Positions 3,396 through 20,730 of a stretch of DNA of 20,730 nucleotides are shown here, in pieces; position 1 is the stretch's first letter; the number at the start of each line of letters is the position of its first letter. A program made the position numbers and the translations under genes. This DNA comes from a virus, in IMG/VR virus record IMGVR_UViG_3300025154_000414, positions 1-20,730 of that record; one strand, 5' to 3'. The notes under the pieces are model-generated. The model was not told where the DNA came from and searched no databases. It was given only the letters and a program-made list of their open reading frames with translations.

Positions 3396-3424
3396 ACTAT
3401 AGAGTACTCCCTCGCATAAATCAA
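3396..3424 (-). promoter_or_regulatory. Candidate sigma-70-type promoter
   Basis: On the minus strand TTGATT (3419-3424) and TATAGT (3396-3401) are separated by exactly 17 bases. The -10 box matches the consensus at five of six positions and the -35 box at four of six. It overlaps the stop codon of the gene at 3421-4389 and sits 33 bases before the next ATG, in one of the few real intergenic gaps. It would give separate expression of the two large genes at the left end. By eye only. Confidence 0.4.
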
Positions 3425-4389
3425 GCAAACGCATTGACAGACGTGCTGACAACGCTATTAAGCGAGGCCGCAAAGGCTGCTGCGGTGCGAGCGAGGGTGT
3501 CGGCCGCCGCTGTCAGGGCCTGGACCTCGACTTGGCTGTTCTGTGTTGCGTTGGTTCGCCGGTGGATGTAGATGCCGTCACGCGACTCCAGCTCGGCCAG
3601 CTTGCTGTTGAGGATGATTCGGTCGCGCTCAAGCCGGACATTGTAGAGATTGGCATACGCCGAGACCATTTTAGCCTGGGCATCCGAGTTGACGTTGGTG
3701 ACATCGACCGCCGAGGCCGGGGCGGTTGCCATCGCCCGGATGTAATCGACCGCGGCCCGCATCGCCTCAAACCGGGACTTGAGCGCCTGCTCAACGGCAA
3801 ACCTGACCGTCTCGATCTCGATCCGCAACTGCTCAACTGCTTTTGCCGTTGACGCCTTGCCGGTCTCCCCCAGCCCGACGAACCTAGCCTCGTCGACCTT
3901 GGCCAGCATCGCCCCGGCCGGCATCATGATTCCTTTGGCGGCGAAGCCGGTGTAAATCTGTTTCTCCACCCGCCTGCCGTCGGCAATGACCCGGTCCCGG
4001 TCCCGCTGCCATGCCTGGTTCTCGATATCAGCATTGATCCCGGTGCCCCCGTTGGTGATCGTGTCTACCAGCCAGGCGGTCGCCTCGTCGAAAGCGTCGG
4101 AGGCGAGGGGGTAGTAGAGCGTGAAGAAGTCGCCCAACTGGTCTGCCAGCATGGCGATGATCTCCGCCAGGCGCACGTCGTACTCGGTCTTTGAGTCGTT
4201 GACCGTGGGGATGGCAGGCTCGACCGCCTCGACCGCGAAACCGGAGAGACTATCAGGCGGCGTGATGTACACCCCAGCGTTGGTCGAGATAAGGTCATTG
4301 GCCGCGTCGACCGCAGCGTTAGTGTTGCTTGTAGCAACCTCCAGAGCGGAGGTGATGATCGCATTGATCTGGTCGGCGGCGTCGGACAT
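3421..4389 (-). CDS. Alpha-helical phage structural protein, 322 residues
   Basis: The start at 4389 follows an AGGAGAAT site and comes two bases after the TGA of the tail protein before it. The sequence is strongly helical and alanine-rich: residues 1-40 form an Ala/Asn/Asp-rich N-terminus, and the rest has long stretches such as the region around RDRDRVIADGRRVEKQIY and a C-terminal Ala/Thr/Ser-rich helix. One loop near 155-165 has GIMMPAGAM. There is no signal peptide, enzyme motif or convincing membrane span. It resembles in composition the helical proteins often found next to tail genes in phages of Proteobacteria, but I cannot name a family. It returns to GC-rich DNA after the AT-rich cassette. 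A virion or tail-associated role is inferred from context. Confidence 0.8.
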   Translation of the reverse strand: MSDAADQINAIITSALEVATSNTNAAVDAANDLISTNAGVYITPPDSLSGFAVEAVEPAIPTVNDSKTEYDVRLAEIIAMLADQLGDFFTLYYPLASDAFDEATAWLVDTITNGGTGINADIENQAWQRDRDRVIADGRRVEKQIYTGFAAKGIMMPAGAMLAKVDEARFVGLGETGKASTAKAVEQLRIEIETVRFAVEQALKSRFEAMRAAVDYIRAMATAPASAVDVTNVNSDAQAKMVSAYANLYNVRLERDRIILNSKLAELESRDGIYIHRRTNATQNSQVEVQALTAAADTLARTAAAFAASLNSVVSTSVNAFA

Positions 4390-4390
4390 G

Positions 4391-5572
4391 TCATATTCTC
4401 CTGGTAAGGTTTGCCGGGACGAACTCCACCCCGATCAGGTCAGTATCGTCTGACGACATCAACGTGAACCCCCACTGGTGCCCCTGGATGTCATGCGGGA
4501 TCTTGGCGCGGTAATCATAAGGGCCGCGGACGCATCGCTCAACCCGGTACGTGTGGTCGGTGCCGTCGACATTGACCTTGAGGTAGGTCGTGCCTCCGGT
4601 CGTCACTCCGACGTAGACGTTGAGAATTTTCTTGCGAGCCTTGATCCCGCAGTTGCTGATGCCGAAGTCTACCTGCCAAGGGATCGTCGCCCCGGCGTCG
4701 GTGTTGCCGGTCAGTTCGTAGACTCCGTCGTCGGCGAGCCCGTAACACTTCCCGTCGCCGTTGTCGTCGAGGAATGAGTTGAAACCGTAGTCGTCATACT
4801 GGCTAGTGGCGGCGGTGTCGATGTTGACGACCCACACTCGGTCGGCGGAGTCGAGCGCCGGGGCGAATGTAGTGCCGGACCCTGCTGTAGCGGTCGAGAA
4901 ATCGCTGATCGCTAAAGAGTCAATGGCCGAGGCCAGGAACGACCCGAGAACCGAATAGGTGCCAGTCACTTCCAAGTCGGTGAGTACGCTGGCGATCAGA
5001 CTACGGGAACCTGAGATGGTATCAGTTATCTGCCCGGTCCAATCAAGAAAAACGATATGGTCCTGGCCAACTCCAACTCCATCGAATAGATATATTGAAG
5101 TTATTGCGTTAGCAATATTAGTTGCTGGACCTTCGTTACCGTAGGACTGTACAGCAGGCAGAGTAGATTCTCCAATTCCATAATTTCCCTCTCCTCCGAT
5201 TGACTGCACAGTTGGCAGTGTTGAACTTCCTGTTCCTGGAGAACTGGTAATAACTAGTCCAAACGAAGAGAACCTTGGAACTTCAGCATATCCTACAACC
5301 GGTTCAGGCGGGATATAGAACCCACCACTTCCGGTCGAAGTTACCGCCGGAAGCTCGGCTACACCTACTCCATATCCTGCTGGAACTTCGCCACCAAAAC
5401 TATCAAAGGCTGGCAGCACAGCATAGCCGTAATTCGATTCTCCATATGGTATCAATCCAAATTCAGAAGAAAATGTAGCCGAGGCAAACTGTCCTCGTCC
5501 AAAAGTTATACCGAACTCAGAACTGAACAGGATGTCACAGTTATTTACGACAAATCCAAATACAGCATCCAT
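4391..5572 (-). CDS. Repeat-containing phage tail protein with C-terminal tail beta domain, 393 residues
   Basis: The start at 5572 is fixed by a TGATG one-base overlap with the upstream stop. Residues 27-145 carry six copies of a 12-residue core G-x-(A/S)-x-(L/V/F)-P-x-(V/F)-x-S-x-G, except that copy 1 has Ser for the Pro; copies start at 27, 49, 70, 94, 115 and 134. Residues 240-393 contain DDNGDGKCYGLADDG (269-283), VDFGISNCGIKARKKI (301-316) and an end motif QWGF...GVEFVPANLTRRI. This C-terminal pattern resembles a domain I recall from many phage and prophage tail proteins, where Gly/Leu-Pro repeats also occur in front. The DNA changes from AT-rich to GC-rich at about residue 178, so the gene looks like a recombination chimera. 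Its job is probably in the tail or fibre; the exact position in the virion is unknown. Confidence 0.8.
   Translation of the reverse strand: MDAVFGFVVNNCDILFSSEFGITFGRGQFASATFSSEFGLIPYGESNYGYAVLPAFDSFGGEVPAGYGVGVAELPAVTSTGSGGFYIPPEPVVGYAEVPRFSSFGLVITSSPGTGSSTLPTVQSIGGEGNYGIGESTLPAVQSYGNEGPATNIANAITSIYLFDGVGVGQDHIVFLDWTGQITDTISGSRSLIASVLTDLEVTGTYSVLGSFLASAIDSLAISDFSTATAGSGTTFAPALDSADRVWVVNIDTAATSQYDDYGFNSFLDDNGDGKCYGLADDGVYELTGNTDAGATIPWQVDFGISNCGIKARKKILNVYVGVTTGGTTYLKVNVDGTDHTYRVERCVRGPYDYRAKIPHDIQGHQWGFTLMSSDDTDLIGVEFVPANLTRRI
5138..5494 (-). repeat. Six Gly/Leu-Pro protein repeats, about 21 residues apart
   Basis: Examples of the core are GYAVLPAFDSFG, GVAELPAVTSTG, GYAEVPRFSSFG, GSSTLPTVQSIG and GESTLPAVQSYG. 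Spacing between copies is 22, 21, 24, 21 and 19 residues. Copy 1 is degenerate (GQFASATFSSEFG, one residue longer). The spacing and the Gly/Pro turns suggest a repeated beta-hairpin or a beta-solenoid-like stalk. Confidence 0.8.
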
Positions 5573-6228
5573 CAGCAGGCTCCGTATTGAACATCGCCGT
5601 AGTCAGCGAATTGTGTTGATGTCACCTTATCACCACTAGCATATAGCATTCCATATACATAAAGAGTAAGATACTTCGGACATGCCAGCAGACTAGTATA
5701 GACCAGTGTTTCAGTTCCAGTCGTTGCTACATAAACTATACTTCCATCTTCCTGCCTATGGATGCGTAGAACTGATACAGCAGTCTGGAGATCTTTCAAC
5801 GTTTTAACAGTTACATTATTCTCTCGAATATGAACTCCAGCAGTATCGCAAATTATAGCATGTGAGAATTTTCCTGGAACTAAAGCCTCTGATCCAGCAG
5901 CAGCAATACCAAGCATTGCCCCAGCTACTCCATCAGCTACAGTAAACACACATACCTCTCCAACACCTAATGGATTAATACTTCTTGCCCAACTATTCCA
6001 ACCTTTGTTAAGCAGTTTATTAATTACATTCGGAGTTGCATACGTTGTAGATGTTCCTGGAACAGCCGGAGTTGGAGGATGCCATATCTTAAGTATATCC
6101 GCATCAGGCTGTACGTATAAACTATCAGTCGATGTATCGTTATAAGAGACAATAGGAAAAGGAAGAAGATTAGTTCCTTCATAACTAGAGTCTGCTGTTG
6201 GGAATCCTTCTCCAATTTCAACAACCAT
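5572..6228 (-). CDS. Putative lectin-like tail protein, 218 residues
   Basis: The start at 6228 lies within the end of the upstream gene (11-base overlap) and is preceded by a GAGGGGAC ribosome site. Residues 50-66 are a Pro/Thr-rich linker. Residues 76-180 have the alternating pattern of a jelly-roll or concanavalin-like sandwich: GWNSWARS, then a VCVFTV strand, AMLGIAAAG, a FSHAIICD strand, VHIREN, an LRIHRQEDGSIVYVA hairpin and LVYTSL. The order of these elements resembles a carbohydrate-binding-like beta sandwich that I remember from phage tail proteins, but no sugar-site residue can be assigned. The final residues are rich in Tyr and Gly and end in GAC. The TGATG junction couples it to the repeat-bearing tail protein downstream. 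A receptor-binding or adhesin role is inference. Confidence 0.75.
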   Translation of the reverse strand: MVVEIGEGFPTADSSYEGTNLLPFPIVSYNDTSTDSLYVQPDADILKIWHPPTPAVPGTSTTYATPNVINKLLNKGWNSWARSINPLGVGEVCVFTVADGVAGAMLGIAAAGSEALVPGKFSHAIICDTAGVHIRENNVTVKTLKDLQTAVSVLRIHRQEDGSIVYVATTGTETLVYTSLLACPKYLTLYVYGMLYASGDKVTSTQFADYGDVQYGAC

Positions 6229-6733
6229 CTATAGTCCCCTCTATGTACTCATAATTTGGAATGTAAATCGGATTTTCTTCAACTACAATATTACTAGTTG
6301 GTGCAGTTACAGCACAGAATGCTACTCCACCATTAATTCTTTGAAGGGCAATATATACAGTATACATCAGCAACGGGCCACCATCTAATGGCTGATCTTC
6401 TTTCCGATATGAATACTGTTTAAATATTGTGGTTCCAAGAGTTGGACTAGACAACAAAGTTTCAAGTAACTTTATCTGGATTGCACATTCATTAGTTAGC
6501 CATGGCCAGATTAATTTAACTTCTGCCCATGTTGCAAGTCGAATATATCCAGGAGTTTCATTGATCGCTGCTGTAGTTATATCTGTATCAGTAGCTGGAT
6601 CTGTAACATTAGGAACTGTGCTAGGAGGAAGCGATGTCCAATACCCAGGTGTAGCAGGCGTTCCAGGAGTTGTAACAGTATATGATTCTCCTTGAACTAT
6701 TTCATAAGTATGGTCTTTTTGTAGTACAGTCAT
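6218..6733 (-). CDS. Hypothetical tail-cassette protein, 171 residues
   Basis: I do not recognise a family. The start at 6733 overlaps the preceding stop as ATGA, so translation is probably coupled; a weak AGGA lies upstream. Residues 18-31 have a Thr/Pro-rich stretch with the motif PGTPATPGYW, a kind of short linker I associate with phage tail proteins. The centre (residues 65-100) is rich in Ile, Leu and Trp, and the C-terminal half has beta-like strands MYTVYIALQ and GGVAFCAVTA. No membrane span or signal is clear. Its position between the 590-residue protein and the lectin-like protein, with overlaps on both sides, says that it belongs to the same translational unit, perhaps as an adaptor or chaperone for the fibre; that is speculation. 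Confidence 0.7.
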   Translation of the reverse strand: MTVLQKDHTYEIVQGESYTVTTPGTPATPGYWTSLPPSTVPNVTDPATDTDITTAAINETPGYIRLATWAEVKLIWPWLTNECAIQIKLLETLLSSPTLGTTIFKQYSYRKEDQPLDGGPLLMYTVYIALQRINGGVAFCAVTAPTSNIVVEENPIYIPNYEYIEGTIDGC

Positions 6734-8502
6734 GGCAATCCTATTGCATATTTATCGTAAGGCCCGACCGGAGTCTCGGGCAGTATCATTGGTGGAGTTT
6801 GATAGATTGCAAGGTCTTTAACAAGTTGCCCTTCACCATACAGACACACTGCGAAGTTATCATCTGATTGCACAGTAAAAGGAAGCTGCCCTAGTACTTT
6901 CCATAATTCAACACTATCCGGAATCCACTTCAAGTAGGCAAAGTTATAAACTGGCTCAACATCCCGCATTACCACTCCAATTAGATGTATCTCAGTTGGA
7001 GTTACTTTAACTGGCCTTGCATGTACAAGCGTATATCCATCAGGGACTCCAGGCAATTTTGTCCACGATACGAATGGAGAGCCATAATAAACTGCTTCAA
7101 TCTCTTCCTTTACTCGATTACAGATACATAAATATAATGGAACTTCATTATATGTTCCTGCATAAGTAATTTCTGGCCTAACTCCAACTGTCGAATCAAC
7201 TTCGGATGGAACACTTATACTTGCACTAAACAACCCTGTTGTAGTGAACTTCACCGTACCATACGTCCTCGACCAGACATACACATCTCCAGCATGAGAA
7301 TGAAACATGATCGAGTCATAAGGAATTGAGAATGCATTATTCGGGATTGCAGAAGCAAGCTGTTCCAACATTCTTCTAGCATCGCTCCAGCTAGCATACA
7401 CATCTACATCTGTAGCCAGAGAGTCTAGTAATGGCATGAATTGATCGGAGTTTATAAGATATGTTGTATCTCCAACCTTCATGCTATAAAACAACTTCCA
7501 TTCTTCATCATCAGCATGATCAGCAAAATAATCTTCAGCAGCACCTCCAGCAAAATACACAACTGGGGTTCCAGTTACATTCATTACATGCAGAAGAGTT
7601 TGTATTCCAGCTAATTCAAAACTATAAGATCCCATTGGATGAATTGATCTAACTCCAGTAGGATCGAGAATAATAGTTCTTAACGCTTCTGGCATTACTC
7701 CTTCAGGAATTATATCTGATAAATAAATCTTTTCTTCATTTGGAAATTCAAAGTTTCTAAAACAAATCATTTCCAACCCATCAGTATCATAATTAGTATG
7801 ACAATATGATACTTGTTTAGTTGATGTAAGTTGTTGACCTATTCTAAAGTTTCTTCCAGCCGAACCAGTTTGAACAGAATAAGTTAAGCGCCCACCAAGA
7901 TTACTTCCATTAGCAAGATAAAACAGTAACGAATTATCATATACAACTTTATACTGATCAGGTGTTCCGCTTAGGTCAATATCTACCATGACGATGTCTG
8001 TAACTGTAACCCAAAATGCCTCAGCTGTTTCATATGGCATTATACAAGGAAGTGTAGAGTAATTTGCAACCTGAACTGATTCTGCTACAATAGCCTCATC
8101 GACTAAACCGAACCAAGAAAGAACGATAGCAGGCGTGAATGGATATGTAATATATCCAGAAGCAATCATAATATCTTCAGAAGCTTTATTGACAACAACA
8201 CCTTGTGTATCATATGCAGATACATTCCAAAACAATGAACTCAATTCTGACAGAGTGGAAAATCCACCAAGCCAATAATCTGCAACAGACAATTTAATTC
8301 CATCAGTATTAGAGATTGCAACAACCGCTCCCATCGGAGCAGTTATTCTGCCTCCAGTTAATTCTCCCTGCTGCCAAACCTTGAACGTAAATCCGTCCCA
8401 CTGAACAGCCTTTGCAGGCACATCAATATCTTTTATAACAGCAAGCTGTTTGTTCGCAAACCATTTGCGTTTCTTACTCCTATCTCCATCAAAACTTATC
8501 AT
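6730..8502 (-). CDS. Unrecognised 590-residue protein of the tail cassette
   Basis: This is the largest gene of the AT-rich cassette, and I can assign no family. It starts in an ATGA overlap with the gene before it and ends in an ATGA overlap with the gene behind it, so it is translated as part of a coupled series. The N-terminus is basic (DGDRSKKRKWFANK) and is followed by a long, mostly beta-like protein rich in Val, Tyr, Thr and Ser, with many short hydrophobic strands and a few acidic loops (for example residues near ADHADDEEWKLFY). There is no signal peptide, transmembrane helix, catalytic triad or metal-binding pattern that I can see. The C-terminal 25 residues are Pro-rich. Size, composition and place suggest a tail or fibre component exposed on the virion; this is inference. 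Confidence 0.75.
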   Translation of the reverse strand: MISFDGDRSKKRKWFANKQLAVIKDIDVPAKAVQWDGFTFKVWQQGELTGGRITAPMGAVVAISNTDGIKLSVADYWLGGFSTLSELSSLFWNVSAYDTQGVVVNKASEDIMIASGYITYPFTPAIVLSWFGLVDEAIVAESVQVANYSTLPCIMPYETAEAFWVTVTDIVMVDIDLSGTPDQYKVVYDNSLLFYLANGSNLGGRLTYSVQTGSAGRNFRIGQQLTSTKQVSYCHTNYDTDGLEMICFRNFEFPNEEKIYLSDIIPEGVMPEALRTIILDPTGVRSIHPMGSYSFELAGIQTLLHVMNVTGTPVVYFAGGAAEDYFADHADDEEWKLFYSMKVGDTTYLINSDQFMPLLDSLATDVDVYASWSDARRMLEQLASAIPNNAFSIPYDSIMFHSHAGDVYVWSRTYGTVKFTTTGLFSASISVPSEVDSTVGVRPEITYAGTYNEVPLYLCICNRVKEEIEAVYYGSPFVSWTKLPGVPDGYTLVHARPVKVTPTEIHLIGVVMRDVEPVYNFAYLKWIPDSVELWKVLGQLPFTVQSDDNFAVCLYGEGQLVKDLAIYQTPPMILPETPVGPYDKYAIGLP

Positions 8503-9653
8503 ACAAGGATCTCAGACTGTCCATTAAAATTTATCCAAAACGCTGATATCGTAGCAAGATCACGAACATAGAGGTTGAAGAAATCACCTCCAACAACGCC
8601 TGGATCAAACAAATACACAGATGTAAAACCAAGGCTATCAGGATTATATGTTATCCCATACTGTCCAGTTGTACTAAGATTTGAATTTGCTACTGAAGTA
8701 GTTGCAATTATAAAAGCTTCTATCAATGTAAGTGTAGTATAATCATATGTGCTTAACACCAGTCTTCTTGGAGATAATGAACTATCATACGCCAACACAG
8801 CTATTATTCCACCTGTGTATGACAAAGAAACAGACGTAATAAATCCATCTCCAGTAAGACCTGAATCTGCACTATCTCCTACAGCTGCAACCCCACCAGA
8901 GAAACTTATCTTATACAACATTGGCGTAGTTGTTGTCAGATTATCTGCAAACAACACATAGTTATCTGCTGATGCTTCACACAGTGCAACCCCATAATCT
9001 GAAAATCTATTACTAGCTATGACAACTGGAGAACCAAAAATTACTGACATTCCAGAGACAGTGCCTATAATATATCTTAACTGGTATCCATCTGGTACAG
9101 TGTACCAAGGATATACATACAAAAGATATCCATCATTATAAACTCCTCTTGGATATGTAGATGGAAATGCAACAGCAGCTCCAACTGTAACAGTACCATC
9201 ACCATTTTCTTGGCAAATAAATGTGCTCGGATAAACTGTTAGGGCAAACTTATCACTTCCTAATGGAACTAAAGATGGATCATATCCATAAGTTGCTGTA
9301 ACAGATGCTGCAGTTGTACTAGTTAATGTAACTGTCATGCCAGAAACTTCTACTACAACAAAAATCTGTTCCGCTGCACTAGAATTTGGACAAAAAACAA
9401 TTATGTTGTCTCCATTAAGGCAGCAACAATTCTGAAGATCAGTACCCTTAAAAAGAATTTCTGAAGTAGTTATTGCGCCTACGACATTTCCATCAACTAC
9501 AGCAGCATATAACTTATAAACACTTGAAGAAAACGCCTGGGTAAAAAGTACAACAAGCTTTCCACTAAGTGGATGATAAATAACTGCATGATGTTTGAAG
9601 TTATAACCTGACCCACCATAAGCAGATACTAGAACTTGATCAACAAGATTCAT
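8499..9653 (-). CDS. Putative seven-bladed beta-propeller tail protein, 384 residues
   Basis: The start at 9653 has GGAGTGA upstream, sharing the GAGTGA of the previous stop. The protein is almost entirely beta-like, and I can mark seven similar units, each opening with a short hydrophobic strand: KLVVLF (32), NIIVFC (83), KFALTV (135), YLLYVY (176), NYVLFA (231), GIIAVLA (282) and FTSVYLF (343). The spacing is 41 to 61 residues, the size of a propeller blade. Several units continue with a second strand pair and a Ser/Thr-rich loop. No kelch, WD or sialidase Asp-box signature is present, so the fold is a guess from periodicity. A compact C-terminal segment ends in FNGQSEILV. The gene lies in the AT-rich cassette and may encode a receptor-binding or enzyme-like tail part, but no activity is shown by the sequence. 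Confidence 0.75.
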   Translation of the reverse strand: MNLVDQVLVSAYGGSGYNFKHHAVIYHPLSGKLVVLFTQAFSSSVYKLYAAVVDGNVVGAITTSEILFKGTDLQNCCCLNGDNIIVFCPNSSAAEQIFVVVEVSGMTVTLTSTTAASVTATYGYDPSLVPLGSDKFALTVYPSTFICQENGDGTVTVGAAVAFPSTYPRGVYNDGYLLYVYPWYTVPDGYQLRYIIGTVSGMSVIFGSPVVIASNRFSDYGVALCEASADNYVLFADNLTTTTPMLYKISFSGGVAAVGDSADSGLTGDGFITSVSLSYTGGIIAVLAYDSSLSPRRLVLSTYDYTTLTLIEAFIIATTSVANSNLSTTGQYGITYNPDSLGFTSVYLFDPGVVGGDFFNLYVRDLATISAFWINFNGQSEILV

Positions 9654-9656
9654 TTA

Positions 9657-10127
9657 TCACTCCGAAGGAATTCCAATAGCATAACTGTCAATCCGCTGTT
9701 CCTGACCTAAAGTAAGATATGCCGATGCAACAATAAGGTCAGTCCCAAGAATACCAACTGTACCTTGACATCTCTTAGCCGTAGTACTGAGTGTTCCATC
9801 ATCAGCTATTGCAGCAAACCGATAGAAAGAAGCATAGCCAGATGCAGCAATAGTACCATACCATGCTTCAGCAGATGCCTTGGTCAATACACCTGAAGAT
9901 GGTATAGTATCCATATTCAATCCAGTACCACCACCTGATACCGAAACTGTACAAAGCAGCGTAGCAGATCCAAGAGCTGCATCAGCTGTCGCAGGAATCA
10001 ATGCATCTGCTGCCGCCTGACTAGTAGGACTTCCATATAGCTTGATCAATCCACCATTGATACCAGCAGCAAAGTCGTCAGTTGCCATCAGGTGATTACG
10101 CATTCCAGTCGAAAGTTTAAAGCTCAT
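9657..10127 (-). CDS. Conserved phage structural protein, 156 residues
   Basis: A GAGGTGA site nine bases before the ATG at 10127 supports the start. The layout agrees with a common phage virion family that I know only as hypothetical: an N-terminal STGMRNHLMATDDF helix, a GGLIKLYGSP strand, an ADAALGSATLL segment, GTGLNMDTIPSSGVLTKA, AEAWYGTIAASGYASFYRF, a QGTVGILGTDLIV hairpin and a short end with RIDSYAIGIP. Members of this family often sit next to the VALHTGDPG-type protein, as here. It is too small for a fibre itself and may be a tail accessory or capping piece. The function is not established as far as I know. It is part of the AT-rich cassette. Confidence 0.8.
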   Translation of the reverse strand: MSFKLSTGMRNHLMATDDFAAGINGGLIKLYGSPTSQAAADALIPATADAALGSATLLCTVSVSGGGTGLNMDTIPSSGVLTKASAEAWYGTIAASGYASFYRFAAIADDGTLSTTAKRCQGTVGILGTDLIVASAYLTLGQEQRIDSYAIGIPSE

Positions 10128-10135
10128 GATTCACC

Positions 10136-10534
10136 TCAATCAGCAGTGGCGACAATTTCGCCTACAGAAAATGTAAGAACACCATTAGCAATCAGTGCAC
10201 GAGAAGCAAGAAGGGGTCCTTTAAATAAACAGTTTCCAGCAGCCAGTGCATCATGTACACTTGCATGTGTCACAGTATATCCAGCAGATGCACCATCAAC
10301 TGTCCACGAAACTTCAAGAGTGCTTAACGATTGCCCGCCTGAACCACCCGCAAATGTAATCGCCTTCCGCACATAATCTGCATCAGTAGCTACAAGCACT
10401 TCATTCGCTGCTCCAGTCTCTCCTGGATCACCAGTATGCAGCGCCACATACCAAGCAGATGGTCTCGTAATAGCTGTAGCTGTCAACAACCATGTAAGAA
10501 CCAAATTTTCTGCATAATCACTTAAACAAGACAT
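10136..10534 (-). CDS. Phage tail-fibre-associated protein of the VALHTGDPG type, 132 residues
   Basis: The start at 10534 follows GAGGTGA placed over the stop of the preceding gene. The signature is the opening SDYAENLVLTWLL helix followed by SAWYVALHTGDPGETG (residues 26-41), then NEVLVA, a YVRKAITF strand and a C-terminal jelly-roll-like half ending in VLTFSVGEIVATAD. Small proteins with the VALHTGDPG motif are frequent in tail regions of phages and prophages, often annotated as tail fibre or minor structural proteins. I am confident of the family resemblance but not of its place in the particle. It lies between two other small proteins of the same cassette with gaps of eight bases. Confidence 0.85.
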   Translation of the reverse strand: MSCLSDYAENLVLTWLLTATAITRPSAWYVALHTGDPGETGAANEVLVATDADYVRKAITFAGGSGGQSLSTLEVSWTVDGASAGYTVTHASVHDALAAGNCLFKGPLLASRALIANGVLTFSVGEIVATAD

Positions 10535-10542
10535 ATCTCACC

Positions 10543-11049
10543 TCACACAGAAATAAGTGCAAAGCCAACTGGAACACGAAGAGACTCTCCAGCAGCAAGT
10601 ACTTTAGCAGTTGAGAACAGCACAGCTGAACAAAGCAGCCCAGTAGTTCCCCCCCTTGTTGCTCCGGTAGTAACAAATGCTCCACGTACTGTCGTTGCAC
10701 TAGTAAATGCTAACTCATTCGGGCTGGCAACAGTTGTTAGAACTCCAGCTGCAACAGCTGGAAATGAAATCGTTGGTCTTGCTCCACCGACAACCGTATA
10801 AACTGTATCCTCTCCACAGTCAGCCAAGAACGTAGTCATAGTATCTGCTGCAAGAGGAGTCCTGTTATTGTCAAACAGCGACAGATACCAAGTTGAGTAT
10901 GCCGATCCTCCCATGAAAGCAGCATTGAGTAGATAATCAACTGCTGGTGTTGGCATCAAATTATGAATCTTTTCAACCGACTTAATTTTTCCATCTACAC
11001 CAATATGCTCAACGGTATAAATGAACCCTGGCCTGTAGTTCTCTTTCAT
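10543..11049 (-). CDS. Phage minor structural protein, 168 residues
   Basis: The ATG at 11049 directly follows the TAA of the gene before it, and the GGAGAG ribosome site overlaps that gene's end. Residues 22-75 contain IKSVEKIHNLMPTPAVDYLL, a Gly/Ser loop and WYLSLFDNNRTPLAADTMTTF, a pattern that I remember from small podovirus tail-region proteins often found beside the VALHTGDPG-type protein. The second half is beta-like and rich in Thr, Val and Ala, with a final VPVGFALISV strand. It is the first gene of the AT-rich cassette: the GC content falls exactly at this start codon. The function is not known; association with the fibre or tail tip is inferred from neighbours. Confidence 0.8.
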   Translation of the reverse strand: MKENYRPGFIYTVEHIGVDGKIKSVEKIHNLMPTPAVDYLLNAAFMGGSAYSTWYLSLFDNNRTPLAADTMTTFLADCGEDTVYTVVGGARPTISFPAVAAGVLTTVASPNELAFTSATTVRGAFVTTGATRGGTTGLLCSAVLFSTAKVLAAGESLRVPVGFALISV

Positions 11050-12285
11050 TTACTCTCCTCTCCGAATGACCTCGGCATCGATCCATGATTGTGCGGCCAA
11101 CCGTGAGGTGGTCGGCTGCTGGAGGCTGACGATGAACTGCCGTATTCCATCCTGCTCCCGGATCAATGTTGCCCCGGAAACCGCCGTCTCAACCGCCACA
11201 TTCGCCTCTTGAACATTCTTACATTCCCCCCCCGGCGCCCCGATGACCAGCCCTCGCTGTGACTGCCAGGCTACGTTGCTGCTGGTCGGCGCCCTCCTGC
11301 CGGTACCGTAGACCCCACCGTAATCGAACTTCTTGGTAACCGTGAAGCCGTCTTCCGGCGTCCCAGCCCAGAACTCGGTGCGGTCCCCGTAGGCCAGGAA
11401 CAACCCATCGGCCACCGGCTCCATGATATCGACAACTGCCGGGAACTGAAGGAAGTTGCTACCAAGCCGGAACTGGTCGAACGAATAAGGCTCCGAGTAC
11501 CAGATCGTACCGAGCGCATCGGCGACGTAGGCCCGCGCGTTATACAGCCTGATGATCCGGCCGGCCGGCGGCGGACTGATGAAGTGCCCGTCGAACACGT
11601 TGCTGTTGTCATAGGTACCGGCGGCGATCGTATAAGAACTGCTCGTCGTATCGGCGACATGGAACAACTCATTGCCGTTGGGCATTGACAGATACAGCCG
11701 CAGAGCGACAGCCTGAGAATCGACGATATGCGGCAGGTTGCCGAACACGATGCCACAACTGGCCTGGGCATCGATACTGACGATTTCCGAAGGCCCCGAC
11801 TCGACCCCGGCAGCATCGACCCAGGCACAACAGGCCAGATACCGGCCGGCGCCGTATACCCCGGAGGTTGTCGACAGGGCCGGCGCCGTCGGCGGTGTCA
11901 CCCCCCACTTGGTCACAGCGGTAGCGGTGATCTTCAACGATATGACACCGTCGCTGAAGTAGACCGTGTCGTTGAAATACTCGTAGGTGAAGGTAGTGCC
12001 GACAATGCCGGAGTAGATGACGGTCGCCGGCGAGGAGCCGTTGAACTGCTTCAGCTTCGACCCTTCGATGAAATAACGACCGAGCGGGCAACTGTACCCC
12101 CCCTTCGGCGCGATACACGCCAAGGTCTTGGTCATCCCCCCTCGCTGCCTGATCGATCCATCGTTGGCGAAATCGGCGTTGACAGCGTTGCGAACGAAGT
12201 TCTCGGGGATGCTGGCCTTCTGTACCAGGTTATTCATGCCTCCACCAAACGGATGCAGGGTAACAACCCCGTTCTCGTACTTCAT
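11050..12285 (-). CDS. Tail nozzle or DNA-stabilisation-like protein, 411 residues
   Basis: The start at 12285 is an ATGA overlap with the adaptor gene. Residues 14-52 include GGGMNNLVQKAS and NADFANDGSIRQRGGMTK, the typical opening of large beta-rich podovirus tail proteins. Residues 131-225 resemble a fibronectin type III-like module (PPTAPALS start, GVESGPSE loop). Residues 240-282 have PPPAGRIIRLYNARAYVAD and YSEPYSFDQFRLGSNFLQF, and 285-310 include ADGLFLAYGDRTEFWAG, strand pairs like propeller blades. P22 gp10 and T7 gp12 are beta-rich proteins filling the same place after the adaptor. I infer that this protein closes the portal channel and extends the short tail, but sequence identity with those proteins cannot be judged by eye. 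It is the last GC-rich gene before the AT-rich cassette. Confidence 0.75.
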   Translation of the reverse strand: MKYENGVVTLHPFGGGMNNLVQKASIPENFVRNAVNADFANDGSIRQRGGMTKTLACIAPKGGYSCPLGRYFIEGSKLKQFNGSSPATVIYSGIVGTTFTYEYFNDTVYFSDGVISLKITATAVTKWGVTPPTAPALSTTSGVYGAGRYLACCAWVDAAGVESGPSEIVSIDAQASCGIVFGNLPHIVDSQAVALRLYLSMPNGNELFHVADTTSSSYTIAAGTYDNSNVFDGHFISPPPAGRIIRLYNARAYVADALGTIWYSEPYSFDQFRLGSNFLQFPAVVDIMEPVADGLFLAYGDRTEFWAGTPEDGFTVTKKFDYGGVYGTGRRAPTSSNVAWQSQRGLVIGAPGGECKNVQEANVAVETAVSGATLIREQDGIRQFIVSLQQPTTSRLAAQSWIDAEVIRRGE

Positions 12286-14723: not shown

Positions 14724-15725
14724 TTACAGTTCAGGGATGGCCACTTCTGCAACGGCGACCCAGAGTTGATTGAGTATCAACGCTGCGAAGTAGGTCTTCC
14801 AGCCGATATGCCCGCGCTGGCCGAGCTTGTCGGAGTCACTGACGATGCCCGGGTTCTTGACGAACGGAGTCAGGGCGGTAGCACCCTTGAGCGGGGTGAC
14901 GGCCGCGCAGTCGGCGGCAATGTAGATGACCGGATAGACGTCGGCGTTGGTGCCGGTCGTGGAGATCATCGTGGTGCCGGAGCCGGCCTTGAGCCCGCCA
15001 CCGTCGGCCCAAGGCGTGAACACGGTGGAGGCGAGATACCTGACGTTGCCGACGGAACCGATCTCGGTCGGATAGGCGGACATTGAACCGTAGTCCACCA
15101 CATCCTTGAATCCGGGCATCTTCTGAATGACATCCTCAAGATCGGGATGACAGAAGGCGATGAAGCCGGGTTTGACGTTGACGGTCTCCATGTTTGCCGA
15201 ACTGGAGAGTTTCTTGGTGATGACGGAGGCGTTTTGGCGTTTGAACCCGCGGGTGATCTTCTGCTGCAGGGTCTTGGTCAGGGTCGTATTGACGTCGGTA
15301 CGAACCGTCGAGTTGGCGAAATAGCGGTTGGTGCCGGCCCGCATGATGTAGAACAGCCGGGTCTCAACCGACAGGGCAGCCTGTTTGGCCAGGATGTCAC
15401 TGTACTCCTTGATAATCGGATCCTCGTGGGTGTCGGCAACCTTATCGGTAATGCCAACCCAATCGCCGAGCTGGGCGAGGGTGGCCTGATAATCCGTGCT
15501 GGTGATGGCACTGCCGGCTGGGGTTACACCCTCGGTCAGATCCGTAGTAGCTGCGGACAAGGCCTCATACCTGCGGAACTTGACGGTATCCGAGGAGTTG
15601 CGCGGGATGGGCTTGGCCTGCAGGAACGGCTGCATGACCAGATCGGGGTCGGCCCGCTTCAACAGGTCGGCGGCAAGCTTGCCTGCGGTTCGATAAGAGA
15701 TATCACTGACGGTCTGTGTGGTCAT
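14724..15725 (-). CDS. Major capsid protein, N4gp56 type, 333 residues
   Basis: The start at 15725 has a strong GGAGGAG site. The protein shows the elements that I associate with the N4gp56 family of major capsid proteins with the HK97 fold: DTVKFRRYEAL (46-56), LTEGVTPAGSAIT (63-75), YQATLAQLGDWVGITD (79-94), then the EYSDILAKQAALSVETRLFY helix (108-127), and a GFIAFCHPDLEDVIQKMPGF segment, a DYGSMSAYPTEIGSVGNVRYL segment that opens the peripheral domain, and a late HIGWKTYFAALILNQLW segment. The length is within the usual 300-420 range of the family. It forms the icosahedral shell. A scaffold-like gene is directly in front with a 27-base gap, and a strong terminator lies directly behind, the usual setting of a highly expressed capsid gene. 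Confidence 0.9.
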   Translation of the reverse strand: MTTQTVSDISYRTAGKLAADLLKRADPDLVMQPFLQAKPIPRNSSDTVKFRRYEALSAATTDLTEGVTPAGSAITSTDYQATLAQLGDWVGITDKVADTHEDPIIKEYSDILAKQAALSVETRLFYIMRAGTNRYFANSTVRTDVNTTLTKTLQQKITRGFKRQNASVITKKLSSSANMETVNVKPGFIAFCHPDLEDVIQKMPGFKDVVDYGSMSAYPTEIGSVGNVRYLASTVFTPWADGGGLKAGSGTTMISTTGTNADVYPVIYIAADCAAVTPLKGATALTPFVKNPGIVSDSDKLGQRGHIGWKTYFAALILNQLWVAVAEVAIPEL

Positions 15726-16701: not shown

Positions 16702-16896
16702 TCAATCAAAAAGCTGTATCAGCGCCTTACATTCCTGCGATTTTCCGCGAGCTTCGGCATTCTCACCGTCCTCTAACTTGTCACGGTGCCTCTCACGCCG
16801 AAGCTGGAACAGTTCAAGGAACAACTGTACCGGCTCGGCGGTCTTGTAAGTCTTGAGAATGTCTTCAATTTCCGCTTCCCTTTCCTTGTTTGCCAT
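16702..16896 (-). CDS. Small helical protein between portal and scaffold, 64 residues
   Basis: It overlaps the end of the portal gene by 32 bases, with a GGGGGAGAA site in front of the ATG at 16896. The protein is charged and helical: EREAEIEDILKTYKTAEPV, then FLELFQLRRERHRDKLEDG, and a final CKALIQLFD. No domain is recognisable. Very small genes in this place are frequent in phages and may encode an assembly helper. The strong ribosome site and the intact frame make it likely to be real. Confidence 0.7.
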   Translation of the reverse strand: MANKEREAEIEDILKTYKTAEPVQLFLELFQLRRERHRDKLEDGENAEARGKSQECKALIQLFD

Positions 16897-18949
16897 TTTT
16901 CTTCTCCCCCTCTTGCGGTTTTACTGCGGTAAGTAGTAAGGTTTTCAAGTTTTCCAGCTGCACCTTGTCCTGCCCTGTCTTGGCATTGGCCAAGTTCTGC
17001 TCGACCCTCGACAGGATTTCCTGAATTGTAGCAGCAGTTGTTGCCGCTACGACCTGCGCATCGGTGCGCTGTTTCTCGGCCGAGGCGGTGGCGGCCTCGG
17101 TCTTGGCGGTGGTCAGCCCCTGCTCGACCTGAGCGGCCTGCGAGGCGGCGGCCCGCATATCGGCCAGTACCTTCTTGGCCTCGTCCTCCGGCAGCATCCT
17201 GTCCACCGGCAGGTCCCGGGCCTTGAGACGGTCAACCAGCAGCCCGTAAGTATCAAGTATTGCCCGCTCCTCCGGAGTCAGGGTGGTGACGAACTGGTCG
17301 AGGGCGGCGCCGCGGACTTCCTTGGCGACCAGTGAGAGATTCCCCTTGGCCACGACCTGGTAGTCGCCCTTGATCTCTTCCTCCGGGTTGAACTCCATGT
17401 TCCACTGCAGCATGGAGCCAACCAACGAGGTCGTAAACTTGTCGAAGGCCCGAACGGTGTCTTTGGTCACCATGTTCGCCGAACCCATCATCATGCTCAT
17501 GTTGTTCGACGTCCTGAACGCCTCACCGAGCGGCTGCTGCTGCATCGCGCCCATGGTGTAAGCCGGCAGGTTGCTCTCGATATCGAGCTGCTGACGCTGC
17601 ATGGTGATGATGCTGAGAAGATCCGGGATATGCGACTGGGTGACGATCGATCTGATCGCCGGGTACTGGGCAGCGACCCCGTCGCCCTCACGCTCAATGG
17701 TCATGAAGGCATGAATGGGGCCGATGTTCTTGCGCCCCCTGGCCAGCAACTCGGTGTTGACCTCGAAGATCGGACCGGCGATCGCCGCCATGTTGTCCAT
17801 CATCGCCCGGGTGGTAGCACAGAGCGACATCTGTGAATCCCTGATCTCCTCCGGCATCCCGACGCCGGTCAGGCCGCTGTCCTCATCCTCGGTGTAGATG
17901 AAAGCATGGTACTGATCGGAGGGGCGTTTGCCGAAGGGGGCGACCACCGCCTTGATCACCACGTCGTCGACGAACCACAGGTCGGCCAGGATATCCATGT
18001 CGAGATTGTCTTCAGATATCTCAATGCCGGCCGCAGCCAGGGTATGCCCGGAGATGAAGCCGAGGCCACGGTAGATCTCATACCTGCGGGCGGTGCGGTC
18101 GGCGAGGTTCGAGGTCTTGGCCAGGGTGTGCAACTCGGCCTCATAGGACTTGGCCAGGTAGTTGCCAGTGGCATGGTCCTTGATGTACTCGCGGATGCTC
18201 TTGCCGATGAAGTCGTCACGTTTGGACAACTCCCGGAAGTCGTGCCGGCTGAGGACAGCCCGCTCGAACATCATCTCCTGGTCCTCCCAGCACTTGGCCG
18301 ATAGGTCCGGGTAGAAGTCCCAGATCCGCACATACTCCGGGTATGGCCGGCGAATGGTCTTCTCCTTGGCGACATAGGCGCCGGTGGCTGGGTCCATCTC
18401 CCAATACCGCTCTCGCTGAGTGCGGACCATCGGGCAGCGGGCGACGCCGAAACCGTAGATATAGCCGCTGCGGGTGACCCGCTTGCAAAGCTGGGGATGG
18501 TCGACATTGGCATCGGAGAGTTGGTCGGCGATCTCGGTCTCCATCCTGCCCTTGCGGTCCTCGGCGAACTCCCTGACCGCTCGCTCGATCGTCTCGCTGC
18601 TGATCGGCTCTCCGGTCTGCTGCAGGTTGGCGAGGATGTTCTCAAGGGCGTCTTTCGGAATGGAGGGGGACGGCGACACCGACAGGGTCCAGTTGCGGTC
18701 CTGAGAGGGGAACATCATCTCCATCATCTTGGCCACTCCGCCCTTGATCTTGACCTTGGTGTCACGCGGGTAGACGTGGGAGCGTTCTTCCTGGATATAC
18801 TGGAGGATCTCCGGATCATACTTGCCGAGGTACTGCCGCAGGTTCTTCAGCCACTGTGCCTCACAGAGAGCCCGGTCGTTGATGAACTGGGCGAGGGTGC
18901 CCTTCAGGTGGGTGCCGAGCTTGGACAGTTCATCGAAGTTGTATTTCAT
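16865..18949 (-). CDS. Portal protein, 694 residues
   Basis: The start at 18949 gives an N-terminus MKYNFDELSKLGTHLKG with a helical opening; the ribosome site GAGGCGA is modest. Residues 30-95 include CEAQWLKNLRQYLGKYDPEI, RSHVYPRDTKVKIKGGVAKM and MEMMFPSQDRNWTL, the pattern of podovirus-type portal proteins. The centre has KTIRRPYPEYVRIWDFYPDL, then a long region with RDSQMSLCATTRAMMDNMAA and helices as in the portal stem and wing. The last 100 residues are Gln/Ala/Lys-rich, probably a coiled coil, ending in a basic Lys/Gly tail. Twelve copies would form the ring at one capsid vertex through which DNA enters and leaves. Its place directly after the terminase gene and its length, within the normal 500-750 range, support this. 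Confidence 0.85.
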   Translation of the reverse strand: MKYNFDELSKLGTHLKGTLAQFINDRALCEAQWLKNLRQYLGKYDPEILQYIQEERSHVYPRDTKVKIKGGVAKMMEMMFPSQDRNWTLSVSPSPSIPKDALENILANLQQTGEPISSETIERAVREFAEDRKGRMETEIADQLSDANVDHPQLCKRVTRSGYIYGFGVARCPMVRTQRERYWEMDPATGAYVAKEKTIRRPYPEYVRIWDFYPDLSAKCWEDQEMMFERAVLSRHDFRELSKRDDFIGKSIREYIKDHATGNYLAKSYEAELHTLAKTSNLADRTARRYEIYRGLGFISGHTLAAAGIEISEDNLDMDILADLWFVDDVVIKAVVAPFGKRPSDQYHAFIYTEDEDSGLTGVGMPEEIRDSQMSLCATTRAMMDNMAAIAGPIFEVNTELLARGRKNIGPIHAFMTIEREGDGVAAQYPAIRSIVTQSHIPDLLSIITMQRQQLDIESNLPAYTMGAMQQQPLGEAFRTSNNMSMMMGSANMVTKDTVRAFDKFTTSLVGSMLQWNMEFNPEEEIKGDYQVVAKGNLSLVAKEVRGAALDQFVTTLTPEERAILDTYGLLVDRLKARDLPVDRMLPEDEAKKVLADMRAAASQAAQVEQGLTTAKTEAATASAEKQRTDAQVVAATTAATIQEILSRVEQNLANAKTGQDKVQLENLKTLLLTAVKPQEGEKKNGKQGKGSGN

Positions 18950-18972: not shown

Positions 18973-20409
18973 TTAATAGCCTTCTTTCTGGGCAGGGCGG
19001 TAAGATTGAAGCTGATTAAGCGGGTTATAGTCTACTCGAACATGATCGGCCGGGTCGTACTTGCCAGAAAGCAGATATAAGTCACCATACTGTCCGGCCT
19101 CAGCTATATGGGACCATGCGTTTTTCTCTGGGCTATCCGAGAACTCACCGGAGAGCTTCTTCTTCGGGTATCGGTACTTGCTGCGCAGGGCCTCGATATA
19201 CAGCTTGCAAGAGGGGTCAATAATCATCAGCGGCTCGCCATCCGGATACTGACTGAGCATGTGCTCCGTCGCTTCGATGCGCACTTTGGGGTCGTTGGTC
19301 GATGCTGCCTTGACGATCGCTCCGTCTTCGTCGTAATCGGTCTTCAGTACCTTGAACGCCGAGGACTCGTCGGAGTCGGCCCGCCGGCTACCGGCCGGGT
19401 CACCGATGAAGATCAGCGGATTGTTTGGAAAGAAGTTCTTGATGATTGGCCGCAGGCGCAGTCGACTGAACCGTTTCATGCCCATATCAAACTCGGCAGC
19501 CTCGCGCAGAACCCTGACCCGGCCATCGAGTGACATCTGTTTGAAAGTCGCAGCTGGCGTTAATCCGCAATCGAAGCTGATGATCACCGGCAGGTCCGGG
19601 TCCGGCTGCAGATGCACTGGCGACACGTGCCGCTCGGGACGGAAGGTCGCCCCGTAGACCGGCTTACCAGACATGGATGGTGAGTAAAGACCGTGAATGT
19701 AGGTATCGACCCAGGCCTTGGTCTGACCCTTGGCGAGGTCCTTGTAGTAGTCAGGATGGAGGTGGTCGAGGTTCTCACCCTGCGGCGACAGGCCAGATGG
19801 CTGCTTGAAGGTGTCGACCTCGATAATGCTGTTGTCGTTGCCCTCTTCCTGCGGCAGGTGCTCCATGAGCTTGAAGGCGGCACTGTCGATCTCGGGCGGG
19901 TTAGTATCCATGATCAGACCGTACCATGCCCCAGGCACCTCAACCGGGTTCGGGTAGCGGCGCAGACGGCCCTTGATGTCTGCGTACAACGGTACAGGCA
20001 CCTCACGAAATTCGTTGATAAAACAGCCTGTTAGCTCCAAACTGAGAACTCTTCCTATATCGTCAATGGTGTCGAGCGGCAGGAACAGGATCTCGGACTC
20101 CACGTCTCCGAACTTGAGCCGAAATGTCATCTTCGACTCATGCCAAGTGCCGAGGTCACGCATCCAGTGCATCCAAGTAGCAAGAGTCGTGTCGCGTAAT
20201 TGTTTTACGGTATTACGTACAATCGCCCACTTAGATGATCTTTTACCGTTGTTCCAGGGGGGCATCTCGAGGTTGCGGCGGAGGATCTCCACACACATAC
20301 CGGCTGATTTTCCGGATCCTATCGGGCCGCTGATCGCCCTGTGAAAGGCGTTTGAGCGCATGAACTTGGCGACCGTCGGCGGCGCAGTGTAGTTGAAATC
20401 CTTTATCAT
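18973..20409 (-). CDS. terL: Terminase large subunit (packaging ATPase and nuclease), 478 residues
   Basis: The protein pumps DNA into the prohead and cuts the concatemer. The Walker A loop is GPIGSGKS at 28-35. The Walker B region is LTGCFINEFREV at 126-137, with Asn at 132 before the catalytic Glu 133 where many terminases have Asp. MDTNPP at 167-172 fits the coupling motif. The nuclease domain has Asp 280 in VIISFDCG and Asp 337 in FIGDPAG; SHIAEAGQYGD at 433-443 would supply the third acidic residue, with Glu 437 in place of the more usual Asp. The start overlaps the stop of the 56-residue gene by ATGA. No recognisable small terminase subunit is visible in this window; it may lie upstream. 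The family resembles podovirus terminases. Confidence 0.92.
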   Translation of the reverse strand: MIKDFNYTAPPTVAKFMRSNAFHRAISGPIGSGKSAGMCVEILRRNLEMPPWNNGKRSSKWAIVRNTVKQLRDTTLATWMHWMRDLGTWHESKMTFRLKFGDVESEILFLPLDTIDDIGRVLSLELTGCFINEFREVPVPLYADIKGRLRRYPNPVEVPGAWYGLIMDTNPPEIDSAAFKLMEHLPQEEGNDNSIIEVDTFKQPSGLSPQGENLDHLHPDYYKDLAKGQTKAWVDTYIHGLYSPSMSGKPVYGATFRPERHVSPVHLQPDPDLPVIISFDCGLTPAATFKQMSLDGRVRVLREAAEFDMGMKRFSRLRLRPIIKNFFPNNPLIFIGDPAGSRRADSDESSAFKVLKTDYDEDGAIVKAASTNDPKVRIEATEHMLSQYPDGEPLMIIDPSCKLYIEALRSKYRYPKKKLSGEFSDSPEKNAWSHIAEAGQYGDLYLLSGKYDPADHVRVDYNPLNQLQSYRPAQKEGY

Positions 20410-20576: not shown

Positions 20577-20730
20577 CCCTGCAACTCCTCAGCACACCTA
20601 ACACAATATTGGCAACCAGGAACTGCTTTGCGACGACCTTCAGGGATTGGTTCTTCGCAGTCCAAACAATGCGTTCTTGACTCTCCATAAAAAACTTTTC
20701 GATTAGCTAATGCTTCTCTCAGATGTATCT
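20573..20730 (-). CDS. TraR/DksA-family zinc-finger protein, 5' end outside window
   Basis: The open frame enters from the right edge and gives 51 residues before the TGA at 20573. It holds HCLDCEEPIPEGRRKAVPG, then CQYCVRC: a C-x2-C-x17-C-x2-C finger with the EPIPEGRR core typical of the TraR/DksA family. The usual TraR-like length is about 60-75 residues, so only the first part of the N-terminal helix is missing. Family members bind in the secondary channel of RNA polymerase and change promoter choice; for this phage the effect is inferred. The protein in another frame starting at 20688 is rejected because it lacks this motif. The stop overlaps the start of the next gene by four bases. Confidence 0.85.
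   Translation of the reverse strand, partial: IHLREALANRKVFYGESRTHCLDCEEPIPEGRRKAVPGCQYCVRCAEELQG

Follow-up and report, generated by a model that had tools for sequence, protein, structure and literature searches.

We report an exchange unit of tail genes in a short-tailed phage, the IMG/VR virus record IMGVR_UViG_3300025154_000414 (20,730 bases; this whole stretch of DNA is called the window below). The genes of the window are late genes of a short-tailed phage, and every one lies on the minus strand. An AT-rich block between GC-rich flanks is, in our assessment, probably a tail exchange unit that came from a low-GC podophage lineage and that contains a nested slot for recognition heads docked by a tag. 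The block includes seven cassette genes (5572–11049) and a part of the gene 4391–5572, called the hinge gene here. Loci of relatives are designated by “L” numbers and contigs by “G” numbers.

The GC content is 0.35–0.47 across about 5250–10750, versus 0.55–0.67 on either side. Where the nozzle gene ends, it drops from 0.60 to about 0.40, and it climbs back inside the hinge gene. The seven cassette genes have a per-gene GC content of 0.37–0.45 and a GC content at third codon positions (GC3) of 0.19–0.30. The corresponding values for the flanking genes are 0.50–0.63 and 0.57–0.82, and the hinge gene is intermediate (GC3 0.55). Codon usage was assessed with a per-gene log-likelihood ratio that compares a low-GC relative (contig G002, carrying L010) with the window's own flanks. 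All seven cassette genes score +0.45 to +0.64 per codon (donor-like), all 11 flanking genes scored have values of -0.16 to -0.40 (native), and the two sets do not overlap. The usage switches at 11062, four codons ahead of the nozzle stop, and at about 5044, inside the hinge gene.

The original prediction for this stretch, an AT-rich block with sharp edges, was thus right to within a few codons, and the start codon at 11049 that it named as an edge is effectively the same place as the switch at 11062. It correctly described the contrast with the flanks, but the upper value in its range of 55–75 percent GC is too high for the genes there. Gene starts, which it regarded as coupled, overlap only in some cases (8499/8502, 6730/6733, 6218/6228, 5572). 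No tRNA was found in the window, hence there is no integration-type marker in it.

The features of the window are as follows.

18973–20409, minus strand: large terminase
16865–18949, minus strand: portal-like head-tail adaptor
14724–15725, minus strand: major head protein
11050–12285, minus strand: nozzle / head-closure Hc3 protein, native GC-rich flank (phrog_8040, E 3.5e-48; PDB 26fb_K, E 1.8e-27)
11050–11100, minus strand: left edge of the exchange unit, nozzle codons 396–411, with the codon-usage switch at 11062
10543–11049, minus strand: first cassette gene, virion protein of 168 amino acids, GC3 0.30 (phrog_8123; PDB 26la_U, E 3e-18)
10136–10534, minus strand: Fiber I (gp80-like) protein, GC3 0.24 (PF23140, E 1.2e-31; PDB 8jou_a, E 5e-20)
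9657–10127, minus strand: virion structural protein of 156 amino acids, GC3 0.26, upstream neighbour of the slot (phrog_3758, E 1.1e-13; 96% identical to L010)
8499–9653, minus strand: slot gene, putative exchangeable head protein of 384 amino acids, GC3 0.19
8502–8540, minus strand: C-terminal tag of the slot protein, FWINFNGQSEILV, residues 372–384; downstream crossover zone
6730–8502, minus strand: conserved cassette protein downstream of the slot, 590 amino acids, candidate socket (AlphaFold model)
6218–6733, minus strand: cassette gene, 171 amino acids, 78% identical to L010
5572–6228, minus strand: cassette gene, 218 amino acids, virion structural protein family, 75% identical to L010 (phrog_26502, E 1e-4)
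4391–5572, minus strand: hinge gene, a chimera with donor-like codons 1–176 and a native C-terminal part (phrog_26502, E 1.3e-27; PDB 26gp_Q, E 5e-14)
4777–5044, minus strand: right edge zone, hinge-gene codons about 176–266, with the window's switch at about 5044
3421–4389, minus strand: native GC-rich gene beyond the right edge, GC3 0.80

The cassette and its flanks differ in their relatives. The nozzle protein is 97–99% identical to those of L003–L006 and the next protein upstream is 99–100% identical, versus 42% for the nozzle of L010. The first three cassette proteins of L003, L005, and L006 are just 48–73% identical to those of the window (the first one is 70% identical in L003 and 57% in L005); in L004 they are 92–97% identical. 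The identity breaks at about codon 8 of the gene 10543 in L003 and within the last codons of the nozzle gene in L005 and L006. In L003 (6371–7584) the first cassette gene has a GC3 of 0.67 and the next two 0.21–0.26, which puts the composition edge one gene deeper into the cassette than in the window. Divergence from L005 at fourfold-degenerate sites is 0.02 in the nozzle gene, rises to 0.56–0.68 across the first three cassette genes, and is 0.00 for the part of 6730 that is sequenced. This low-high-low pattern indicates a patch replaced between two untouched neighbours. L015, a GC-rich sibling, has portal and major head proteins that are 94–95% identical to the window's, yet it carries a GC-richer cassette at 49–59%.

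In the cassette L010 is close to the window. It lies on a 65-kb contig with a GC content of about 41% across the 62 kb examined, and no match to the window's terminase was found on that contig. Its first three cassette proteins are 94, 87, and 96% identical to those of the window, the proteins of 6218, 5572, and 4391 are 78, 75, and 61% identical, and that of 6730 is 41% identical. A tree of the first three cassette proteins (concatenated) rejects the grouping of the window with L003–L006 (approximately unbiased (AU) test, p-AU 5.6e-6), and the nozzle tree rejects the grouping of the window with L004 and L010 (p-AU 1e-48); these values are descriptive because the groups were picked after the identities were known. 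Divergence between L010 and the window at fourfold sites of the cassette genes reaches 0.30–0.63, thus L010 is a relative of the donor and not the donor itself.

The right edge lies within a single gene. The hinge gene is a chimera of a donor-like N-terminal half and a native C-terminal part: codons 1–176 share 82% identity with L010 and 34% with L015, the final hundred residues are 88–98% identical to L015 and 23–26% to L010, and the middle part is common to all relatives. Its GC3 shifts from 0.26–0.32 to 0.72–0.84 along the length.

Comparison of the relatives' sequences indicates that a tail unit of about 6 kb has been exchanged among phage lineages several times, in both directions and with the same two edges. 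L023 (nozzle GC3 0.58) and L028 (0.18) have nozzles that are 43% identical and cassette proteins that are 83–93% identical, with one 6.07-kb block at 79% DNA identity. In the comparison of L027 (nozzle GC3 0.71) with L029 or L019 (0.18–0.20) the nozzles are 41–42% identical, the first cassette proteins 86–92%, and the 6730 protein 60–62%. DNA homology begins at nozzle codon 396–401 of 411 in all three backbone pairs, and on the right it first breaks, or ends, inside the hinge gene, at the window-equivalent codon 188, 215, or 266. Many low-GC phages are a mirror image of the window: several of their cassette genes have a GC3 of 0.3–0.7 versus about 0.2 for the nozzle. Several unit-trading phages, of both composition classes, come from one sample series (IMG 3300025009 and neighbours).

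The position of the edges in short conserved stretches suggests homologous recombination between phages that have diverged. Of the six large relatives, five (low-GC G002, G006, G007, G008, and G009) encode a Sak4-like AAA ATPase, which was not found in the GC-rich sibling G005 (L015). A search of the same six for ERF and RecT recombinases found neither. The Sak4-like ATPase may be linked to the recombination of the unit.

The predicted module exchange with a donor of different composition is therefore strongly supported by codon usage, identities, trees, and recurrent edges, and, as expected, relatives differ between the cassette (L010) and the nozzle (L003–L006). A constant association of this cassette with these flanks was named as the finding that would speak against exchange. 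The opposite is observed: cassettes differ between phages whose flanks are nearly identical, and a phage with 41% GC has the same cassette type. Three other elements of the prediction change. A different host of the donor is not supported, as a host search with the 6730 alignment against genome contigs gave no match. Instead of a single insertion, the window presents one of several two-way exchanges of a unit with recurrent edges, and the cassette itself is mosaic. Finally, “recent” holds only relative to the split from the close relatives.

The block contains a second, smaller level of exchange. The only clear homologue of the slot gene 8499–9653 lies in the twin contig that is identical to the window. 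The same position in other phages holds other proteins, i.e., the variation is whole-gene replacement. After removal of the C-terminal tag, 19 slot occupants sort into seven groups between which blastp detects no similarity (E 1e-3).

Kelch type: L015, L019, L020, L027, L029
RCC1 type: L036, L037
BNR/DUF6242-like: L006, L023, L028, L053
WD40-like: L009
another repeat type: L017, L018, L025, L030, L033
lectin-like (our reading, no Pfam match): L005
the window's own protein: window

Pfam matches above curated cut-offs were obtained for L015 (Kelch) and L037 (RCC1), and suggestive ones for L009 (WD40) and L006 (DUF6242); the Pfam search gave no match for the slot proteins of the window, L005, L017, L018, and L033. 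An AlphaFold2 model of the window's slot protein, built with no alignment, was poor (predicted local distance difference test (pLDDT) 42) and was not used.

All 19 slot occupants terminate in FWTNFxGQTEI or a close variant, and most slot-gene stops overlap the next start as ATGA. Third positions of the tag codons vary freely and the residues are kept, so selection acts on the protein. The swaps of the slot gene are clean. L037 and L017 are 98.2% identical over 6,221 bp up to the slot, then have unrelated slot genes, and become alike again 42 nt before the slot stop; L005 and L006 behave in the same way. Since homology resumes at the tag codons, these double as the zone where slot swaps cross over downstream.

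The tag does not depend on the position of the gene. In L010 (14513–15610) and L035 (10670–11581) the slot is empty, and a tagged gene is located elsewhere in the cassette with the tag retained. In a survey of 45 loci, each of the 29 phages with a complete cassette has one tagged open reading frame (ORF); the cultured phages KPP25, Rollin, and AP1 and the Manatee Spring phage ctwe8250 are among the tagged phages. The sequences of L003 and L004 stop before the slot. Chance hits of the FW tag numbered three among about 800 other ORFs of this survey, and no FW-tagged ORF was found in five more distant phages having nozzle homologues. A scan of 2.9 million viral contigs with the DNA pattern of the tag returned 27 matches, 25 of them already known by homology. 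The scan added one member, L114, whose slot occupant is small and unrelated; L107, an internal match in another kind of protein, was discarded as chance.

We propose the following scheme. The block would have been acquired by recombination from a low-GC podophage lineage having the same kind of tail, with one crossover within the final nozzle codons and the other midway along the hinge gene. Recombination at these positions would leave the head, portal, and nozzle native and replace the distal tail. The unit is common to phages of at least two composition classes and travels both ways. The slot between 9657–10127 and 6730–8502 provides a finer level of exchange for a putative recognition head, and the heads would be mostly beta-propellers of unrelated families. 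The C-terminal FWTNFxGQTEI peptide is probably a docking tag, by which the head would attach to a conserved tail protein, making any tagged head pluggable, and its codons also supply the downstream crossover homology. Candidate sockets are the products of 6730–8502, 9657–10127, and 10136–10534. Where the socket differs as well, the larger unit would carry over all distal tail parts as a set. The slot product is presumably a part of the virion, and its position, the fold types, and the turnover suggest that it binds a receptor and that its exchange changes the host range. We consider it fairly probable that a whole class of podophages mounts interchangeable heads of unrelated folds by a common C-terminal FW... 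peptide, in a one-gene slot nested in a larger tail unit exchanged among lineages whose base composition is very different.

Some observations weigh against this scheme. L010 is 12–15% diverged at the DNA level in its best-matching cassette genes and has only 41% protein identity in 6730, which excludes it as the direct source of the block in its entirety. The socket is at the candidate stage, and the tagged proteins are putative virion and binding proteins. No close chain was found in the PDB for the tagged protein of KPP25. Additionally, no contigs other than the window and its identical twin, which are possibly not independent, show the right junction (about 5044). The last point favours an assembly chimera, in which the assembler joined an AT-rich block to GC-rich flanks. 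We regard such a chimera as very improbable: the left junction also occurs in L004, from another sample, with 100% identity from 11500 to about 10900–11000; both edges are found again in two other backbone pairs; and the junctions keep reading frames open, one of them yielding a full-length chimeric protein. Even less credence can be given to an old, stable arrangement, with the cassette and the flanks long together and the composition difference due to selection or expression of tail genes. L008 and L009 do pair GC-rich flanks (about 0.57) with an AT-richer cassette (0.40–0.50). However, this explanation is already contradicted by the siblings with near-identical flanks that lack this cassette (L003, L005, L006, and L015), by the GC3 of 0.67 in the first cassette gene of L003 next to two AT-rich genes, by the fit of the cassette codon usage to a real low-GC phage carrying these genes, and by the reverse contrast in low-GC phages.

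As for the slot, its common C-terminus could be a feature of DNA only, either a recombination site or a ribosome-binding or translational-coupling signal. The tag codons do coincide with the crossover and precede the next start, and the GAG of the glutamate codon may serve as a Shine-Dalgarno element. Conservation of residues with free third positions argues for a protein-level role, as does the persistence of the tag in moved genes that overlap no gene start (L010, with a 173-nt gap after the gene, and KPP25). Since moved genes retain the tag, translational coupling was rejected, and a purely DNA-level role seems improbable overall. It is somewhat easier to imagine, although still unlikely, that the slot protein is tail-borne but serves as an enzyme or a decoration protein and not as the primary receptor-binding protein: the occupant of L015 resembles N-acetylneuraminate epimerase/Kelch proteins and the KPP25 protein is sialidase/BNR-like. 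Rapid replacement by unrelated folds within a fibre cassette would best fit host recognition.

Among the other cassette proteins, the product of 10136–10534 matches PF23140 with 110 bits over residues 4–129 (curated cut-off 27 bits) and 8jou_a in a phmmer search. The AlphaFold model of the 6730–8502 protein is confident (pLDDT 84, predicted TM-score 0.85). A structural search with it gave weak propeller-like matches only (TM by target at most about 0.44), and we claim no fold. The genes 5572–6228 and 4391–5572 match separate parts of one family of 620 amino acids (phrog_26502, PDB 26gp_Q); comparison of KPP25 (L131 9943–11805) with the window's 4391–6228 points to a fused or split virion protein. 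Outside the cassette, a 147-bp stretch at 20584–20730 is 88% identical to 6254–6400 of the low-GC L010. Judged by eye, it codes for the C-terminus of a small cysteine-rich protein resembling DksA/TraR zinc fingers. The stretch may be a second patch traded with the low-GC lineage.

The closest described tails are found in two groups. The protein of 10136–10534 belongs to the gp80 fiber I family (PF23140, PDB 8jou) of Ralstonia podophage GP4, gp80 being the sole protein compared; the GP4 structure is cited in PMC11784390. The KPP25 group (Kochitakasuvirus), Pseudomonas phage Rollin, and Acidovorax phage AP1 share with the window the order of the nozzle, the 10543-like protein, and small structural proteins, as well as an ORF ending in an FW tag. 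Their tags are looser than that of the window (FWTDIEYCEEF, FWTNLRRAAEQI, and FWIEHQNTYEIP), their nozzles are 24–29% identical to the window's, and their cassettes, unlike that of the window, are GC-rich like the rest of the genome. No homologue of the 6730 protein was found in the phage collection. KPP25 ORFs of 398, 171, and 620 amino acids have the lengths of PDB chains 26fb_K, 26la_U, and 26gp_Q, which suggests that the solved tail (26fb, 26la, 26gp) is probably of the KPP25 group.

Phage receptor-binding proteins, e.g., those of the T7 gp17 type, have a conserved N-terminal anchor and a variable C-terminal tip. The slot proteins would likewise combine a constant anchor with a variable recognition part. 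In contrast to the gp17 type, their constant part is a short C-terminal peptide, and everything N-terminal to it varies among unrelated folds. A literature search for propeller heads or C-terminal anchors in phages gave nothing relevant, and no description of a C-terminal tag common to unrelated phage heads was found within its scope, which did not extend to subscription papers.

Exchange of tail modules is already known in principle. As in phage mosaicism in general, the window's recognition genes are swapped as a block and the head genes stay, the edges lie at gene ends or inside a conserved gene, and composition marks the foreign block. Unlike the general case, the donor-type lineage, both edges, the recurrence in three pairs, and the two-way direction are readable from sequence here, and the nested one-gene slot with its common C-terminal tag is an extra level. 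If the docking is true, the tagged slot would amount to a naturally occurring plug-and-socket system in which recognition heads are anchored by their C-terminus. The 11-residue signature would then predict heads in unannotated phages and would offer a simple handle on how phages change their adsorption specificity.

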